A stretch of 64,000 nt of DNA from Rhodoferax ferrireducens (GTDB lineage: Bacteria > Pseudomonadota > Gammaproteobacteria > Burkholderiales > Burkholderiaceae_C), in contig MTEI01000011.1 in assembly GCA_002083775.1 (NCBI GenBank), positions 1 to 64,000 on the forward strand, in the 5' to 3' direction. Below are positions 40,291 to 49,405 of the stretch, one piece after another. The translations under genes were made by a program, and so were the position numbers. The notes beneath the pieces were generated by a model. That model worked only from the letters and a program-made list of their open reading frames with translations. It did no database searches and had not been told where the DNA came from. Numbering within the stretch: the stretch's first letter is position 1; every line of letters starts with the position of its first letter.

Positions 40291-40365
40291 CTCGCTGTAG
40301 TTCAATGGATAGAACGAGTGCCTCCTAAGTGCTAGATACAGGTTCGATTCCTGTCAGCGGGACCA
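40291..40365 (+). tRNA. tRNA-Arg (CCT)
   Basis: A complete cloverleaf with encoded CCA: acceptor strands CTCGCTG/CAGCGGG (one T-G pair), D-arm TAGTTCAATGGATAGAAC, anticodon loop CTCCTAA (CCT) and T-arm ACAGG-TTCGATT-CCTGT. Its 3' end is the attachment site for the 9-kb element. Confidence 0.95.
40346..40365. repeat. attL direct repeat (tRNA 3' end)
   Basis: GATTCCTGTCAGCGGGACCA at the tRNA-Arg 3' end recurs at 49387-49405 with one G missing. The two repeats bound the integrated element and are the likely attachment cores. Confidence 0.85.
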
Positions 40366-41438: not shown

Positions 41439-44372
41439 TCACAGATCAAGCTCAAAAATGGCAGGGGTCACCCGGTAGCACCACGAATTGCCCAAGCCAG
41501 GTAGGCGGGCTTTGCAGTCGAACGCCCGGCCCTTGTCGGGTGCCAGGCAGCCATGATCCAACAGCACCCGACTAACCGTTTTGTGGTCGAAGCCTTGGCA
41601 CACTTCGCCTCGGAAGCTCTCAGCCAGGATGAAATATTCAAAGCTCACGCCTTCACCCAGTGCCGGGGGCATCCGTTCGCCATACTCCCGCTGGTGGTCG
41701 CTGTCGGTTTTGATGGGGTTACCGTCTGCATCCAACATGCGACGCACTCCCGCCCGCTGCAAAGTTTTGGGGGCGTGGTCGTCGCTGCCCCGGTGCCACA
41801 TTGCGAAGCGGCCTTCACCGTGGGTTTCCAGAAAGCGGCGAACCTGTCGCAACATGGCCACCACCTCACCGTTTCCGCTGCCACCCCGGGCCGCCAGCCA
41901 CGATTCAAAGCAGACACGGGCGGCCCGCTCACTCTCACCCGCTGGCCAGCCTGTCAGCCCCGCCGCCGTGGCCAGTTCACCCGCTGCCCCCACCAGCGCA
42001 AAACGTGCCCCCACCCGTTCCACTTGCCCGCTGGCATTGGCTGGCATCATGGCCGCCGCCAGGGCGTTGGATGCGGTGCGAATGCTGGCCTTGAGGGTGT
42101 CGGCATGTTCCACCAGCCATTGCAGCCAAGCGCGGCCCGTGGCACCGTACACGCTTTGGGCGTGCCCCGTGATGTGCTTGGCAAAAGCAGCGCCGCCCGC
42201 CAGGCCGTGCAATTGCTCGAACGCACCCAGCCCAGCGCCTGCATCCGCCGCCAGGTCAACCATTCGCACCTCTTGCCCCACACGGGTTCGCTTCTGGCCT
42301 TCTGCCATATGGTCAGCCAGCCCCAGTTCACCAGCGGACAAAAACAGCAGCCGCCATGCCTGCCGGGCGCGGGGTGAACCTGTACGGGTTGCACGGGCCT
42401 TGCCTTGTTCGTTTGCCAGCATGTAGGCGCATTCGCCAGCCGTTTTGGGGTCGATCTGTGCCAATTCATCCAAGATCAACAGGCCGTCGCAGTGTTGGGC
42501 CGCAATGGCTTCAAGGGCGTTGTCCGTTGCCCGCCAGCGTTGCAGGTAGTTGGCACCGCCGTACACGCTGGCAGCCAGTTTAAGGGCCGTAGTCTTGCCG
42601 CTGGAACTGTCCCCCCGGTAGTGAAACCCGCCGGATTCCATACCCGCCGGGCGTAACAGCGGCCCGGCAAAAGCACTGGCCACAGCAAACACCAGCCGGG
42701 AATTGCCGACACACAGCGCCCCCACCCGGTCGCGCCATTGGTCGGGCGTGCCTTTGGTCTTGAAGGTGTTTTCAATCGGGGCATCAGACTGGAAAACAAT
42801 CCGCTCTGCATCCGTGCCACTGGTGACAGTTTCACGGGGCAGCACAAAGGCGGTGCCATGCCAGCCGATACGGTCGGTGCAACTGGCGAACTCAGCCGGG
42901 GCACGGGTTTGGATGTATTGGGTCAGCAGGTTACGGGCGCGGGGTGTGGTGGCAATGCGCAGCCCCATGTTTAACAGCGTGGCGCGGTATTCACCACCAT
43001 CGGCGGACAACATACGGGCGGGCATTGCCCATTGCTTCAAGGTTCCAAGCGGGTCATTGAACGCCACGTAATAGCCCCAGCCGCCGCCGTCCTGATCACG
43101 GGTCAGGGCTTGCACGTCCAAACGGCTGCACACCCATTCGGGCGGCTTGCGTTTGCCGTCCTGATCAGCACCACAGAACCACACGCCCGCATCGTCAACG
43201 GTGAACGGATCAAACATGCGCTCAGGATCATCCGGGGCAGCGCCGGGGGCAGCATTCGCCCCGCTGGGCTGGCGCGGCTTGGACTTGGCACCGTTGCCAG
43301 GCGCGGGCGCGGTCGTTGACTGGGTGGGCGTTTTGGCTTGTTGCTGGGGTGGTTCGTAATAGTCAATCGCCTGGTTTATGGGCGTGGCCACCGCGTCATA
43401 TCCGCAAAGCTGGTGCAGGTCGTTGAAGTCGGAACCGTCAGCCGGGAGCGGGTCGGGGAATTCTGGGAACAGCGCCAGCCCAGCCACCGCACGGGCCGCC
43501 GCCGTGGCCTTGTCGCGGCCCGGGTTGTGGCCAGTGCGAGCGTGGGTGTCGCGGTCGTCGTCGCCACAGATCACGATCAGCGCCGCCGGGTGTGCCTGGT
43601 GCACAGATTTGGCCACGTGCAACAAATTGCCCGCGTCAAAAGCCACAGCGCAGGGGCGGCCCGTGCATTCGTGCAGACTAGCCGCCGTGGCGTACCCCTC
43701 GCAGATCAGCAGCGCAGCGGCCCCGGTCGGATCACCGCACCAGTGAAACAGCCCGGCCTTGCGGCCCCCTTTCAAAAACAATTTGTCGGTGCCACCGCCA
43801 GCCGGGCGGGTGGGTGCAATGCGTTGCAGGTTCCACAACTTGCCCGCCGTGTCACGCAAGGGCACCAACACCCAGCCATCAGGCGCAAAGCGCACGCCGT
43901 AGGGCTGCACGCCCTTGCGGGTCAGGTAGGCGCTTTCGCCTGTTTCGCTGGCGGCCTGCCACAGTAACGCGGCTTCACTGGCTGCGCGTTCGTGGGCGGC
44001 TTGTCGCTGGGCAGCGTCAGCCTGTTGGCTGGCGGCCCGCTCGCTGGCCAGGCGTGCCACCGTTGCGGGGTCGGGCTGGGCTGGCGCTTGGTCGGGCTTG
44101 GGCAGGTTGAAGCCGTTTTGTTTTGCCATGAAAAGCAGCGTTCCAACAGTCACGCCGCCGCCCGGTTTGAGGCTTTTCCAAGTGTCGCGCAATGACTTTG
44201 CGTTGTAGTTTTCAGCGGTGCAGCTCCACGATTCAGCCAGATCAAACCCGGTTGCATCGTCGAATTCGCTTTTGATAGCTGCCAGCACTTTTGCCCATTC
44301 GTCACGGCTGACATTGGGCGGGATGAACCGCAAAGCGGATTCAATCAGGGGGGCGGTAATGGGTGTTTTCAT
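41439..44372 (-). CDS. Element primase-helicase (PriCT_2 + Toprim + DUF927)
   Basis: The 977-residue protein has a PriCT_2-type helical domain (residues about 8-90, ALRFIPPNVSRDEWAKVLAAI), a Toprim region with LLICEGYATAASLH (E225) and VICGDDDRD (D271), a Pro/Ala-rich linker (about 340-385) and a DUF927-type superfamily ATPase with Walker A YRGDSSSGKT (about 586-594) and Walker B LLILDELAQIDP. This architecture replicates phages, plasmids and satellites. ATG 44372 overlaps the stop of the upstream small gene. It probably acts on the TGGGGGCA iterons (inference). Confidence 0.88.
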   Translation of the reverse strand: MKTPITAPLIESALRFIPPNVSRDEWAKVLAAIKSEFDDATGFDLAESWSCTAENYNAKSLRDTWKSLKPGGGVTVGTLLFMAKQNGFNLPKPDQAPAQPDPATVARLASERAASQQADAAQRQAAHERAASEAALLWQAASETGESAYLTRKGVQPYGVRFAPDGWVLVPLRDTAGKLWNLQRIAPTRPAGGGTDKLFLKGGRKAGLFHWCGDPTGAAALLICEGYATAASLHECTGRPCAVAFDAGNLLHVAKSVHQAHPAALIVICGDDDRDTHARTGHNPGRDKATAAARAVAGLALFPEFPDPLPADGSDFNDLHQLCGYDAVATPINQAIDYYEPPQQQAKTPTQSTTAPAPGNGAKSKPRQPSGANAAPGAAPDDPERMFDPFTVDDAGVWFCGADQDGKRKPPEWVCSRLDVQALTRDQDGGGWGYYVAFNDPLGTLKQWAMPARMLSADGGEYRATLLNMGLRIATTPRARNLLTQYIQTRAPAEFASCTDRIGWHGTAFVLPRETVTSGTDAERIVFQSDAPIENTFKTKGTPDQWRDRVGALCVGNSRLVFAVASAFAGPLLRPAGMESGGFHYRGDSSSGKTTALKLAASVYGGANYLQRWRATDNALEAIAAQHCDGLLILDELAQIDPKTAGECAYMLANEQGKARATRTGSPRARQAWRLLFLSAGELGLADHMAEGQKRTRVGQEVRMVDLAADAGAGLGAFEQLHGLAGGAAFAKHITGHAQSVYGATGRAWLQWLVEHADTLKASIRTASNALAAAMMPANASGQVERVGARFALVGAAGELATAAGLTGWPAGESERAARVCFESWLAARGGSGNGEVVAMLRQVRRFLETHGEGRFAMWHRGSDDHAPKTLQRAGVRRMLDADGNPIKTDSDHQREYGERMPPALGEGVSFEYFILAESFRGEVCQGFDHKTVSRVLLDHGCLAPDKGRAFDCKARLPGLGNSWCYRVTPAIFELDL

Positions 44373-44654: not shown

Positions 44655-44930
44655 TCAAAGGGTGCCGGGCATGGGGGGCAGAAAACCAGCCTTCAAAACT
44701 TCGGGCTGCCCAGGTTCCGACACTGCCAAAACGGTGCCCGTGTCTGGGTCAATCACCGCCAGCACACCGGGCCATTCCAGCCGCACAAAAACCGAAGCGC
44801 TGCCCTTGCCCATGCGCCGCTGGAACAGCGGATTTTTGATGTTGAACGCGGTGAAGTTTGCAGCCCGTTTGAGGTGGTTTTCAGCCGATTTCAAGGCTTG
44901 GGCTTTGAGGTATTCGGGGCCAAAATTCAT
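44655..44930 (-). CDS. Hypothetical element protein
   Basis: ATG 44930 overlaps the alpA stop (ATGA) and gives 91 residues beginning MNFGPEYLKAQALKSAENHL. The N-terminal half is a basic helix and the second half is beta-like (SASVFVRLEWPGVLAVIDPD). The function is unknown; its position between alpA and the replication genes suggests an early-operon role. Confidence 0.65.
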   Translation of the reverse strand: MNFGPEYLKAQALKSAENHLKRAANFTAFNIKNPLFQRRMGKGSASVFVRLEWPGVLAVIDPDTGTVLAVSEPGQPEVLKAGFLPPMPGTL

Positions 44931-45157
44931 GATTGATCCCCCGCCGCTGCAATGCGTTCTCTGATCCAACGATTAATGGAAGATTCAGGCCAGCACACTG
45001 CCCGGCGGCTCAATTTCAAGGGGCGCGGGAAAGCTGGCGGGGTGCGGTTCAGCATCTCATAAATTGCTGACTTTTGAAGCCCGACACGTGCCACCACAGC
45101 GGGTAGGCGTAATAGGGTTTCGGGTGCTGGCGTAGGGGTGTTTGCTTGGGTTTTCAT
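44927..45157 (-). CDS. AlpA-family transcriptional regulator / excisionase-like
   Basis: The 76-residue product has the AlpA/excisionase winged-helix pattern: LLRLPAVVARVGLQKSAIYEML, FPRPLKLSRRAVCW and SSINRWIRERI. In P4-like elements AlpA proteins control integrase expression and excision. An AGGAAA site precedes the ATG. It heads the coupled four-gene run that ends with the primase-helicase. Confidence 0.9.
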   Translation of the reverse strand: MKTQANTPTPAPETLLRLPAVVARVGLQKSAIYEMLNRTPPAFPRPLKLSRRAVCWPESSINRWIRERIAAAGDQS

Positions 45158-45207
45158 GGGTTTCCTAAAGTTGGAAACCCGATTTCATGCGGTGCGATCT
45201 TTGGTGG

Positions 45208-45846
45208 CTACGCTTTGCGCCGTTTCTCTAAAAACTGTGCAAGGGGTTGCTTTTCGCGTTTGTGTAAGTGTTCGGCCTGGTTTTCATCAATCCGCGTAAC
45301 CAGTTCGCGGGCTTTGCGCTTTTTGACGCCCCACTTTTTCAACGCTAGAACGCTATCAAGCACCATATCAAGGCTATTTGCATCAGTATGGTCTAAAGCA
45401 TATCGCCAGCATTCGCCCCAAAGCTGCACACCAAGCGCCCAATCTTGCCTTGCAGCAGCCGCCTTTGTTGGGGTATTGGTTGGTAAGCTGGCGCTACTAA
45501 AAACAAGATCCAATGAATGCGCCCCGCCAGGCTGCAAAAAGCCAGTCATAGCCTTTGAAAATGCCACAGCAAGCCAGCTTGGCATAGGTAGATTTTCATC
45601 GGCGCAAAGCTGAATCGCTTGCAATAGTGCTAGCGTATCGCCAGCCTCGAAACGCTCACGCCACACACCCAAAGCGGCCTTCATATCTGCCAGCGACCGA
45701 CAGTTAACAATCCCCTTTTTGTGACCGTAACGAATACCTGTCCGCAACCCAAGCGCTAACTTAGCCCAGCCACTATCAAGGATGTTCAGTTCTTTTTCGT
45801 CGTCGTTGTAGCGGCGATTTGGATCATCGCCAAAATACGGGATCAT
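45208..45846 (-). CDS. Unknown protein with atypical AT-rich composition
   Basis: From ATG 45846 (GGGGTGG upstream) the product has 212 residues, beginning MIPYFGDDPNRRYNDDEKEL. It is mainly helical, contains LLQAIQLCADENLPMPSWLA and WALGVQLWGECWRYAL, and ends in a very basic tail (REKQPLAQFLEKRRKA). I recognise no domain. Base and codon use are clearly more AT-rich than every neighbour, which marks it as recently acquired cargo or a gene of different origin. It sits upstream of alpA on the same strand. Confidence 0.75.
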   Translation of the reverse strand: MIPYFGDDPNRRYNDDEKELNILDSGWAKLALGLRTGIRYGHKKGIVNCRSLADMKAALGVWRERFEAGDTLALLQAIQLCADENLPMPSWLAVAFSKAMTGFLQPGGAHSLDLVFSSASLPTNTPTKAAAARQDWALGVQLWGECWRYALDHTDANSLDMVLDSVLALKKWGVKKRKARELVTRIDENQAEHLHKREKQPLAQFLEKRRKA

Positions 45847-45960
45847 CGCCACCCCTTCAGGTGCAGCCTTCAAAGGGTGCCAGCGCCAGGCGGGTGAAGG
45901 ACTCCCGCTTTTCGCCCGTGGGGATCAGCCGTGGGCTAGGCGTGGCAAAACGCTTGCGGG

Positions 45961-46170
45961 TCAGTCCCCCGCCGGGTGCCCCGCCGCCTTCAGGGCCGCG
46001 TGCAATTCGCGGCGAACGGTGTTCCAGTCTGGCACCGTGCCGAATTCGTCCGGGTTCACTTTGGTCTGGGCAAAAACGATGGTTGCGTGTGCGGTCAAAA
46101 CGGCTTGCAGCAGCTTTTGTGCCGCTTCGGGTGTGTCGTAGTTGGGGGCATAGCGCCAGGCTTCAGGCAT
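45961..46170 (-). CDS. Small hypothetical element protein
   Basis: A 69-residue frame (MPEAWRYAPNYDTPEAAQKLL onward) with an AAGGAAA ribosome-binding site lies between the RadC-like gene and the AT-rich gene. It is helical and not recognised. GC-rich third positions and the good ribosome-binding site support it as a real gene. Confidence 0.55.
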   Translation of the reverse strand: MPEAWRYAPNYDTPEAAQKLLQAVLTAHATIVFAQTKVNPDEFGTVPDWNTVRRELHAALKAAGHPAGD

Positions 46171-46206: not shown

Positions 46207-46770
46207 TCACATCAGGCCACGTTCTGCCATGCTCAGGGCGTCACCCGGGGCAACAATGACATGATCCAACACCCTGACATCAATCAGCGCCAGCGTGGTT
46301 TTGAGGGTTTGCGTCAATTGTTCGTCCGCCCGGCTGGGATGAACTGTGCCGCTGGGGTGGTTGTGCGCCAGCACCACAGCGGACGCCCCTAGATTGATAG
46401 CCAGGTGCACCACTTCACGGGGGTAAACGCTGGTTTGTGTCAGGGTTCCAATGAACATGGTGTGAAAGCAGATCAGGCGGTTTTGCACGTCAAGGAACAA
46501 CACCGCAAAGCGCTCTGCATGTTCGCCCGCCAGTTGCAATTGAAGGTACGTTTTCACCGCGTCGGGCGTTTCAAACACGGTTCGCCCTTGGGTCAGGCAG
46601 CGCCCCACGATGGCCAGCGCCTTGTCTATGGCGTTGCGTTCGCGTACCTTCAGCCCGTGCCGGAATGACAGAACGCCATCGCCCGCCCCATAGGCTGCAA
46701 CGCAGTCGCTTACCTTGTGGGATGCCCGCCGGGGCGTGCGTGGTGTTGGTGTAGAGTTCACAGCAGCCAT
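46207..46770 (-). CDS. RadC/JAB-domain (MPN+) protein
   Basis: The 187-residue product has the JAB metalloprotease-like core with VVLAHNHPSG and the following PSRAD, which together give the H-x-H...D metal ligands, plus the DVQNRLICFHTMFIGTL strand. RadC-like proteins are common on phages, satellites and plasmids; the substrate is unknown and a role in recombination is not established. ATG 46770 has a GGAGG site; the track start is an upstream TTG. Confidence 0.9.
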   Translation of the reverse strand: MAAVNSTPTPRTPRRASHKVSDCVAAYGAGDGVLSFRHGLKVRERNAIDKALAIVGRCLTQGRTVFETPDAVKTYLQLQLAGEHAERFAVLFLDVQNRLICFHTMFIGTLTQTSVYPREVVHLAINLGASAVVLAHNHPSGTVHPSRADEQLTQTLKTTLALIDVRVLDHVIVAPGDALSMAERGLM

Positions 46771-46848
46771 TTTCAATCCTCCAGTGATTGTTGGTGGTCA
46801 GGCGGGGCGGGTGCTCGCAACACCCGCCCCGCCGCCTTTTTGCCCCGG

Positions 46849-48083: not shown

Positions 48084-49289
48084 TCAGGCGGCCCGCTTTT
48101 TCATTTTCAGCACCTTGCCCGTTTTGCGTCCGTCTAGGTAGTCCGCCCACCACTGCATCAATTTGGCGCGGTCTTCAAGGTAGGTTGAACGGTGGTAAGC
48201 AGCTCGCACGCCGTTGCGTTCAACGTGGGCAAGCTGGCGCTCGATAGCGTCGGGGTTCCAGTTGCATTCATTGGCCACCGTGGAAAACAGCGCCCGGAAA
48301 CCGTGGGCCGTCGCGCTGCCCTTGAAGCCCATGCGTGCCAGGGCGCTATTGAAGGTGTTTTCGCTCAGTGGTTTGCTGGGATAGAACGGGCTGGGAAACA
48401 CCAGCTCACGGTCACCACTCAGGGTTTTCATGGTGCGCAGCACTTCAAGCGCCTGCCGTGACAGTGGCACGCGGTGTTCAAGTTTCATCTTCATCCGGGC
48501 CGCCGGGATGATCCACAACGCCGCGTCAAGGTCAAACTCTGCCCACAGTGCCCCGCGTGTTTCGCCGGGCCGGGTTGCGGTCAGCATCAGCAGCCGCAAA
48601 GCGTTCACCGTGTGGGGGTCGCCGTCATAGGCTGCCAGTTTGGCCAGGAATGCGGGCAGGTCGCTATCTGCCAGGGCGGGGCGGTGTGTCACGTGCCGGG
48701 GTTTGAGAATCTCGGACGGCACCAGATCGACCATCGGGTTTGATTCGATGCGCTCATGAGTCACGGCCCAACGGTAAACAGCCTTGACTCGCTTCAGCAC
48801 CCGGTCGGCTTGGTCGGCTGCCCCGCGTGCCTCTACCTTTTTGACCGCCGCCATGATTTCGCCGGGCTTGATACTGGCAAGGGGCCGCGCCCCCAGCGTC
48901 GGGAAAATGTCCGCCTCAAGGGATGCGCGAATGCGGGCAAGTGTCACGGGTGCCCAGCGTGCGGTCTGGTGCTTCAGCCAGTCACGCGCCACCGCTTCAA
49001 GGGTGTTTACGGTTTCCTGCACTACCTTGGCTTTTTCGGCTTTGCGCAATGCGCCGGGGTCGTTGCCAGCCTTCAAGGTTTTGCGGGCGGTGTTTGCCAG
49101 GTCGCGGGCGGTCTTGAGGCTTACCATGGGGTACACGCCCAACGCCAGGCGCTTTTCTTTGCCGCCGTGCCGGTACTTCAAGCGCCAGTAGCGTCCGCCC
49201 GCCGGGGTCAGTTCCAGATAAAGCCCACCGCCGTCGAAGTGTTTGCCGGGTTCGGTCAGGTTGCGAAGCTGGGCATCAGTCAGGGGCAT
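48084..49289 (-). CDS. P4-type tyrosine integrase
   Basis: The integrase has an N-terminal DUF4102 arm-binding domain (LTDAQLRNLTEPGKHFDGGGLYL, then WRLKYRHGGKEKRLALG), an SAM-like core-binding domain and a catalytic domain with Arg in ATRPGE, His-x-x-Arg in HGFRALF and the Tyr near AYHRSTYLEDR. ATG 49289 with an AAAGGA site gives 401 residues; the track start is 78 bases earlier. It lies next to the right attachment repeat and presumably inserts the element into the tRNA-Arg gene. Confidence 0.95.
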   Translation of the reverse strand: MPLTDAQLRNLTEPGKHFDGGGLYLELTPAGGRYWRLKYRHGGKEKRLALGVYPMVSLKTARDLANTARKTLKAGNDPGALRKAEKAKVVQETVNTLEAVARDWLKHQTARWAPVTLARIRASLEADIFPTLGARPLASIKPGEIMAAVKKVEARGAADQADRVLKRVKAVYRWAVTHERIESNPMVDLVPSEILKPRHVTHRPALADSDLPAFLAKLAAYDGDPHTVNALRLLMLTATRPGETRGALWAEFDLDAALWIIPAARMKMKLEHRVPLSRQALEVLRTMKTLSGDRELVFPSPFYPSKPLSENTFNSALARMGFKGSATAHGFRALFSTVANECNWNPDAIERQLAHVERNGVRAAYHRSTYLEDRAKLMQWWADYLDGRKTGKVLKMKKRAA

Positions 49290-49386
49290 GGTGGGTATCC
49301 TTTGCAATTTGGGGGCACATATGGGGGCACATTCTGCCACCGTGCGACAAATCACTAGGTTTTTCAATCACTTACAGCGGAATTTT

Positions 49387-49405
49387 GATTCCTGTCAGCG
49401 GACCA
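49387..49405. repeat. attR direct repeat
   Basis: GATTCCTGTCAGCGGACCA repeats the tRNA-Arg 3' end with one G deleted. The first 14 bases are identical to the tRNA copy. It marks the right edge of the element. Confidence 0.85.

Follow-up and report, generated by a model that had tools for sequence, protein, structure and literature searches.

Just ahead of its alpA gene, an integrated island of Rhodoferax ferrireducens carries a gene for a 212-residue protein, here called X, and the question raised by this locus is what a gene in that place does for its island. A preliminary description had taken X for the likely variable cargo of the element, of the kind that confers defence, anti-phage activity or superinfection exclusion, at a place where genes could be swapped. 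We followed up this reading in the window, meaning the whole 64,000-nucleotide stretch of DNA that was analysed, and by comparing the locus with its counterparts in other bacterial genomes and in viral sequences.

The island and gene X

Direct repeats of 15 bp (GATTCCTGTCAGCGG) at 40346 and 49387 mark the two ends of the island, whose size is thus ~9.06 kb. Its main features are as follows.

40291-40365, tRNA-Arg(CCT)
40346-40360, plus strand, attachment repeat GATTCCTGTCAGCGG, within the 3' end of tRNA-Arg(CCT)
41439-44372, minus strand, primase/helicase of the PriCT_2-Toprim-DUF927 type
44927-45157, minus strand, alpA (Phage_AlpA, PF05930)
45208-45846, minus strand, X, 212-aa slot gene with an ATG start, predicted all-helical, without a known domain
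45867-45946, minus strand, int-alpA RNA (RF02996), P1-P2-P3 plus motif M1, a covariance-model match
45961-46170, minus strand, 69-aa ORF, its stop 14 nt upstream of the int-alpA RNA
46207-46764, minus strand, RadC/JAB protein, facultative between int and the RNA (present in 4/100 loci)
48084-49292, minus strand, integrase, tyrosine type
49387-49401, plus strand, second copy of the attachment repeat, at the far end of the island

Read leftward, the gene order is integrase, a 108-aa ORF, an HTH protein, RadC, the 69-aa ORF, X and AlpA, followed by two small ORFs and the primase/helicase. All recognised genes run in one direction, and no packaging gene was recognised in the island. X does lie between RadC and alpA, as first described, but the 69-aa ORF and the int-alpA RNA separate it from RadC. 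A strong hairpin is present at 46763-46836, between the HTH gene and RadC, where there is also a sub-threshold Rfam match to an R1162-like plasmid antisense RNA (41.8 bits; gathering score 55; E 1.5e-4).

Both the GC content of X (50.5%) and its GC3 (49.3%) are the lowest among the island genes, the remainder ranging from 55.8 to 65.9% GC with AlpA second lowest, which bears out the remark that its base composition is unlike that of its neighbors. The protein has no family match in Pfam, PHROGs, NCBIfam or PADLOC, a profile search of the PDB matched no solved structure, and the predicted all-helical structure has no Foldseek match; the earlier statement that X has no recognisable domain therefore stands. 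No HTH or other DNA-binding domain was recognised in it by Pfam or Foldseek.

Direct matches to X were found in 2/401 genomes of the family, the window's own genome being one of these, and a further homologue lies on a Variovorax megaplasmid (tblastn, one record). Because the two outside homologues are 48-50% identical to X over nearly the whole length, and a wider superfamily exists, sequence comparison confirms X as a genuine conserved coding gene and no chance ORF. A profile built from the three X proteins recovered more distant relatives within the order, and together these form one superfamily with the common pattern CAxxxLPMPxW...F...GIGKT; a member of this superfamily occupies the same slot in the viral locus L214. 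Other searches were less productive: tblastn found no X homologues in phages, single-protein pattern searches of the genome and viral collections gave zero matches, alignment-based scans returned either just the previously identified Rhizobacter homologue or nothing, and a profile search across the phylum added no relatives. By eye, superfamily genes in the loci L009 (1306-1881) and L010 (1336-1899) stand right behind the integrase stop with no int-alpA RNA, an AlpA-like gene then following downstream and the palindrome shared by the superfamily (described below) being present. The int-alpA RNA is therefore not indispensable.

A conserved slot with unrelated occupants

About 100 int-alpA loci were fetched for a survey of the position held by X, with counts that are inflated by related sequences. 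The order across these copies is int, RNA, gene, alpA. An integrase is present in 92/100 loci, nearly always upstream of the RNA and on its strand, and AlpA in 68/100, nearly always downstream and again on the same strand. In the window the end of the RNA lies 20 nt from the ATG of X. This spacing is general: in 77 of the 100 loci an ORF of 120 aa or more opens with an ATG 12-26 nt past the RNA, compared with 4.2% of random positions and 2/100 loci in an opposite-strand control, and the start codon of an ORF of 80 aa or more was found behind the RNA in 22/28 held-out class-wide loci. Several int-alpA loci have no ORF after the RNA.

The gene in this position is as variable as its surroundings are constant. 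The share of similar locus pairs is 76% for the integrase and 63% for AlpA, against 1.2% for X, and loci paired by their integrases (78-87% identical), with AlpA proteins 60-74% identical, carry unrelated X proteins. The 113 X proteins, including those of the class-wide loci, fall into 73 clusters, 60 of them singletons, and profile-profile comparison of the window's X group with two other groups disclosed no hidden relation. Among 86 slot proteins we found 11 Pfam families, each in one protein. X proteins are also modular, the 62 pairwise relations between them being confined to the C-terminal half in 21 cases and to the N-terminal half in 9. Comparison of the loci thus shows a slot, running from the start codon behind the leader to just before alpA, that holds unrelated genes in different elements. 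The early suggestion that this is a place for swapping is borne out by the same-position comparison over ~100 loci and by the sister elements discussed below: rather than being conserved in all related elements, the occupant changes, while the slot itself is core.

Two further loci deserve mention. The slot protein of L139 (5694-6155) appears by eye to be an HNH/AP2-type endonuclease, fitting the sole HNH_3/AP2 match of the set, and is possibly a homing gene in the slot. In L120, on another contig of the window's own genome, a pair of small ORFs resembling the BrnT/BrnA toxin-antitoxin (by eye) lies between int and the RNA, ~670-90 nt before the RNA end. This is where the window has RadC, which points to a second variable place in these islands.

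Direct exchange in viral relatives

An exact search for the int-alpA pattern yielded 31 viral contigs, including a group of elements of ~10.4-11.4 kb that align over almost their entire length, X excepted, with 83-99% identity in the aligned stretches. The replaced stretch extends from the X start codon to ~55 nt beyond the X stop. Thus L202 and L218 are 97% identical over a stretch that begins with the integrase and stops 3 nt short of the X start codon; they encode unrelated X proteins of 274 and 213 aa, and resume at 91% identity ~55 nt past the X stop, over 8.2 kb. The swap is also seen in L198/L207, L190/L218 and others, and between L190 and L202 the C-terminal part of X is kept and the portion before it is different. 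With its genes for capsid, prohead protease, portal and terminase, L202 resembles a capsid-forming satellite. Capsid-forming PICI-type satellites such as L202 share with the window's island the order int, int-alpA RNA, X, AlpA-like HTH and helicase, but the window's island has none of these four L202 genes. No near-identical sister of the window's own island was found.

Operator-like repeats in front of alpA

The ~55 nt that are exchanged with X in the viral elements contain inverted repeats that depend on which X is present (CCTATTGGG..CCCAATAGG, CGTATCGGA..TCCGATACG and TACAGTCT..AGACTGTA), each occurring once in its own element and absent from the sister elements tested. In the clearest cases, then, alignment of these elements shows that the swapped unit is X, or its N-terminal part, together with a short X-specific palindrome before alpA. 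The viral loci L190-L219 also have a conserved hairpin, TTGCCTCGTC-N11-GACGAGGCAA, immediately before alpA, which is retained when X and its repeat are swapped.

Similar elements are enriched in the X-alpA gaps of the wider set. Of 60 gaps, 25% contain perfect inverted repeats with arms of 8 bp or longer, compared with 1.8% of shuffles, and direct repeats exactly 21 bp apart occur in 7/60 gaps and in no shuffles. One group comprises five loci (L059, L063, L076, L126 and L145) whose X proteins have only a ~60-aa C-terminal domain in common. All five of their gaps contain CGA..TCG palindromes, compared with 1/55 others (p = 1e-6). These palindromes are paired, exact or with one member imperfect, at a distance of 20-22 bp (two helical turns), as in the CCGAATTCGG pair of L126, and the motif is found nowhere else within the five loci. 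Structure comparison of the recurrent C-terminal domain gave no significant match, and a vinculin-like sequence match was rejected as a chance all-helical likeness. Within the superfamily of the window's X, the loci L009, L010, L113 and L214 have in common a 30-nt palindromic element behind X, CCCGCTAATTTTnnAAAATnTTGCGGGAATAC (consensus by eye), with local-alignment scores of 13-25 compared with a background 99th percentile of 10.9. The gaps of L072 and L130 have no strong repeat. Longest-common-word tests on the gaps of C-terminally related X genes were mostly negative, the palindrome and local-alignment tests being the informative ones. In L119, again from the window's own genome, two near-copies of AGCGGTGGTTGCGGTA ~21 bp apart precede alpA (by eye), which fits the operator pattern.

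The window has one such element:

45158-45180, minus strand, inverted repeat GGGTTTCC-AACTTTA-GGAAACCC, operator-like, immediately ahead of the alpA start

It has no other close match in the window. Shuffling the gap produces arms as long as these in 0.4% of cases, and 1.6% of random 53-mers from the window have them. The repeat is missing in the two closest X homologues, L002 and L003, the latter having no annotated AlpA nearby. Since it abuts the alpA start codon, it could alternatively be an RNA hairpin. The putative operator of the window's own X is thus put forward from this single inverted repeat and from the pattern in relatives.

That X is accessory cargo for defence or superinfection exclusion, the slot being a cargo hotspot and the palindromes being autoregulatory or belonging to alpA, seems to us unlikely. 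Extreme variability, low GC and single-gene replacement are all typical of cargo, and the slot proteins include one nuclease of the HNH/AP2 type. Phage resistance is common among satellites, and EcCIMP1 confers superinfection immunity without a known system (PMC11773190). However, X matches no family of known anti-phage defence systems (PADLOC, zero hits), and PADLOC found nothing convincing among the 86 slot proteins, its best hit, for a single protein, being to an HNH or homing endonuclease; no other slot protein resembles known defence proteins. Moreover, the X-specific repeat precedes alpA rather than X and swaps along with X, and motif identity tracks the C-terminal domain of X. Of the original cargo proposal, what survives is that X is the variable gene of the element in a swap slot; a defence, anti-phage or superinfection-exclusion role finds no support. 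The exchange of X together with an operator-like palindrome ahead of alpA points instead to a regulatory switch, and an exchangeable control switch is the more likely description of X than a defence gene.

Alternatively, X might bind the palindromes for a DNA-level purpose other than transcription, for instance as an origin-binding or partition protein or as an aid to excision. A spacing of 21 bp between paired palindromes or repeats would also suit partition sites or origins, and the model of the C-terminal domain is faintly, non-significantly like the DNA-binding domain of StbA from R388 (TM 0.56, E 3.5). Against this, the repeats occupy the position of the alpA promoter, the elements have their own primase/helicase and integrase, and satellite origins have been reported downstream of pri (PMC10111431). 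We regard such a role as improbable.

The int-alpA RNA as a probable leader of the slot gene

The RNA ahead of X matches Rfam RF02996 with 60.9 bits, above the gathering score of 35.8, and the same leader is found upstream of several distant X homologues. It is present in 83/399 genomes from the order and 40/364 from the class. Four copies are found in the genome to which the window belongs; one of them, L121, is degenerate and below cut-off, with int, two AlpA-like genes and no ORF after the RNA. The elements with a putative role in translation of X are:

45895-45903, minus strand, P3 loop AGUCCUUCA, whose CCUUCA is complementary to UGAAGG in M1 and M2
45867-45872, minus strand, M1 (UGAAGG), pseudoknot partner of the P3 loop
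45850-45863, minus strand, P4 hairpin CACC-UGAAGG-GGUG, whose loop is the Shine-Dalgarno-like M2

Compared with RF02996, the window's leader is distinguished by the P3-M1 pseudoknot and by the Shine-Dalgarno hairpin, which lies outside the Rfam model.

In 73/93 loci the RNA starts no more than 60 nt, usually 6-16 nt, past the stop codon of the long ORF in front of it, whether or not that ORF is the integrase. Beginning just after an upstream stop, the RNA fills the intergenic gap, in which there is no space for a separate promoter. Past the end of the Rfam model, hairpins with the ribosome-binding motif in the loop have stems of at least 4 Watson-Crick pairs in 62% of cases, compared with 16% of shuffles. 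Leader pairing was tested by permutation, a MAFFT alignment having misplaced the P4/M1 region. Complementarity between the P3 loop and M1 is 5.27 nt and drops to 4.26 when partners are exchanged between loci; for the P3 loop and M2 the corresponding values are 5.12 and 4.40 nt, with a control region unchanged. Not one of 10000 permutations matched the covariation of P3-M1, P3-M2 and the P4 arms, and the result held in subsets below 70% identity, though such counts are not exact probabilities as the sequences are related. The pairing of the P3 loop with M1 and M2 was reproduced in held-out loci. Viral leaders keep the pairing with motifs unlike ribosome-binding sites (UUGAGUGA, UCGGUG, CGAUGAU), and complementarity to M2 is not universal, the L190-type viral leaders pairing with M1 only. 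Single-sequence folding of the window's leader is no better than that of shuffles (z -0.1) and is therefore uninformative, so that it is the covariance model and the covariation that support the proposed structure.

Taken at the level of sequence, the int-alpA RNA looks like an intercistronic leader of the variable gene, despite its filing as an sRNA in Rfam. That it is a trans-acting sRNA with the downstream ORF as an incidental neighbor would agree with the Rfam type ('Gene; sRNA') but is very improbable given the fixed spacing of the start codon, the covarying hairpin around the ribosome-binding site and an RNA placed 6-16 nt behind a stop codon with no promoter room, an sRNA processed out of the same transcript being possible.

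Discussion

We consider it probable that X fills an exchangeable control slot in an AlpA-type, PICI-like satellite island, encoding a DNA-binding regulator that, with its operator, controls alpA and is expressed behind a leader. Because X is encoded just before alpA and an X-specific palindrome lies ahead of alpA, we infer that X is an element-specific regulator of alpA. X would bind the palindrome in front of alpA and set alpA transcription; AlpA would activate the excision and replication cycle of the island, so that X would act through alpA, possibly sensing a helper or a rival island. An island that swaps X and operator would then change its trigger and its compatibility with other islands or helpers, much as with the heteroimmune regions of lambdoid phages or with Stl in SaPIs.

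The island has the sequence features of a Gram-negative PICI. As in those elements, integrase, AlpA and primase follow one another in that order and in one direction (Fillol-Salom et al. 2018, PMC6092414), and both an integrase and tRNA attachment repeats (15 bp) are present. The window's island differs in having, between int and alpA and behind the int-alpA RNA, a hypervariable gene with its own operator-like repeat. The likeness is one of sequence features, and no packaging gene was recognised. In Gram-negative PICIs AlpA activates the cycle and its expression rises on helper induction, the responsible phage factor being unidentified in that study (PMC6092414).

The Stl/Rpr repressors of Gram-positive PICIs are similar in being element-specific regulators that lie beside the switch genes and vary between elements, with an operator between regulator and target, as proposed here for X. 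X, a putative regulator, differs in being co-directional with int and alpA and in having no recognisable HTH, and for these reasons we do not file it as an Stl protein. By analogy, X may work like a swappable immunity regulator. Lambdoid phages that are otherwise alike exchange, in their immunity regions, a single module made up of a regulator and its operators. The joint exchange of X and its palindrome in the viral relatives resembles this arrangement, if X is indeed the regulator that its position suggests; the protein families differ, and the X slot exchanges only one gene and ~55 nt. The Bro-N network described for related satellites (PMC10111431) likewise comprises modular proteins, encoded in a dynamic zone, whose N- and C-terminal domains have been exchanged. 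However, the zone of X lies before alpA and that of the Bro-N network after the integration zone, and neither Bro-N nor an associated Pfam domain is among the families found in the 86 slot proteins. There is thus no sign that X belongs to that network.

The leader would set the translation of X. In this scheme the P3 loop would have two alternative partners: M1, a little upstream, and, in most copies, M2, the Shine-Dalgarno motif of the P4 loop. More tentatively, and with less confidence than we place in the control slot itself, the int-alpA RNA may be a two-state translational switch that meters the slot regulator, and the regulator-operator cassettes may be exchanged among AlpA-type satellites as a form of heteroimmunity that sets responsiveness to helper phages and the coexistence of several islands within a cell; the window's genome has four int-alpA copies.

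If correct, this model would give a function-level reading to the int-alpA RNA, which is filed as an sRNA without a target, and to the step ahead of alpA at which PICI-type satellites of Gram-negative bacteria sense their helper. It would predict which gene and which DNA site matter in each of many islands, and these slots would constitute a large natural set of regulator-operator pairs from hitherto undescribed protein families.
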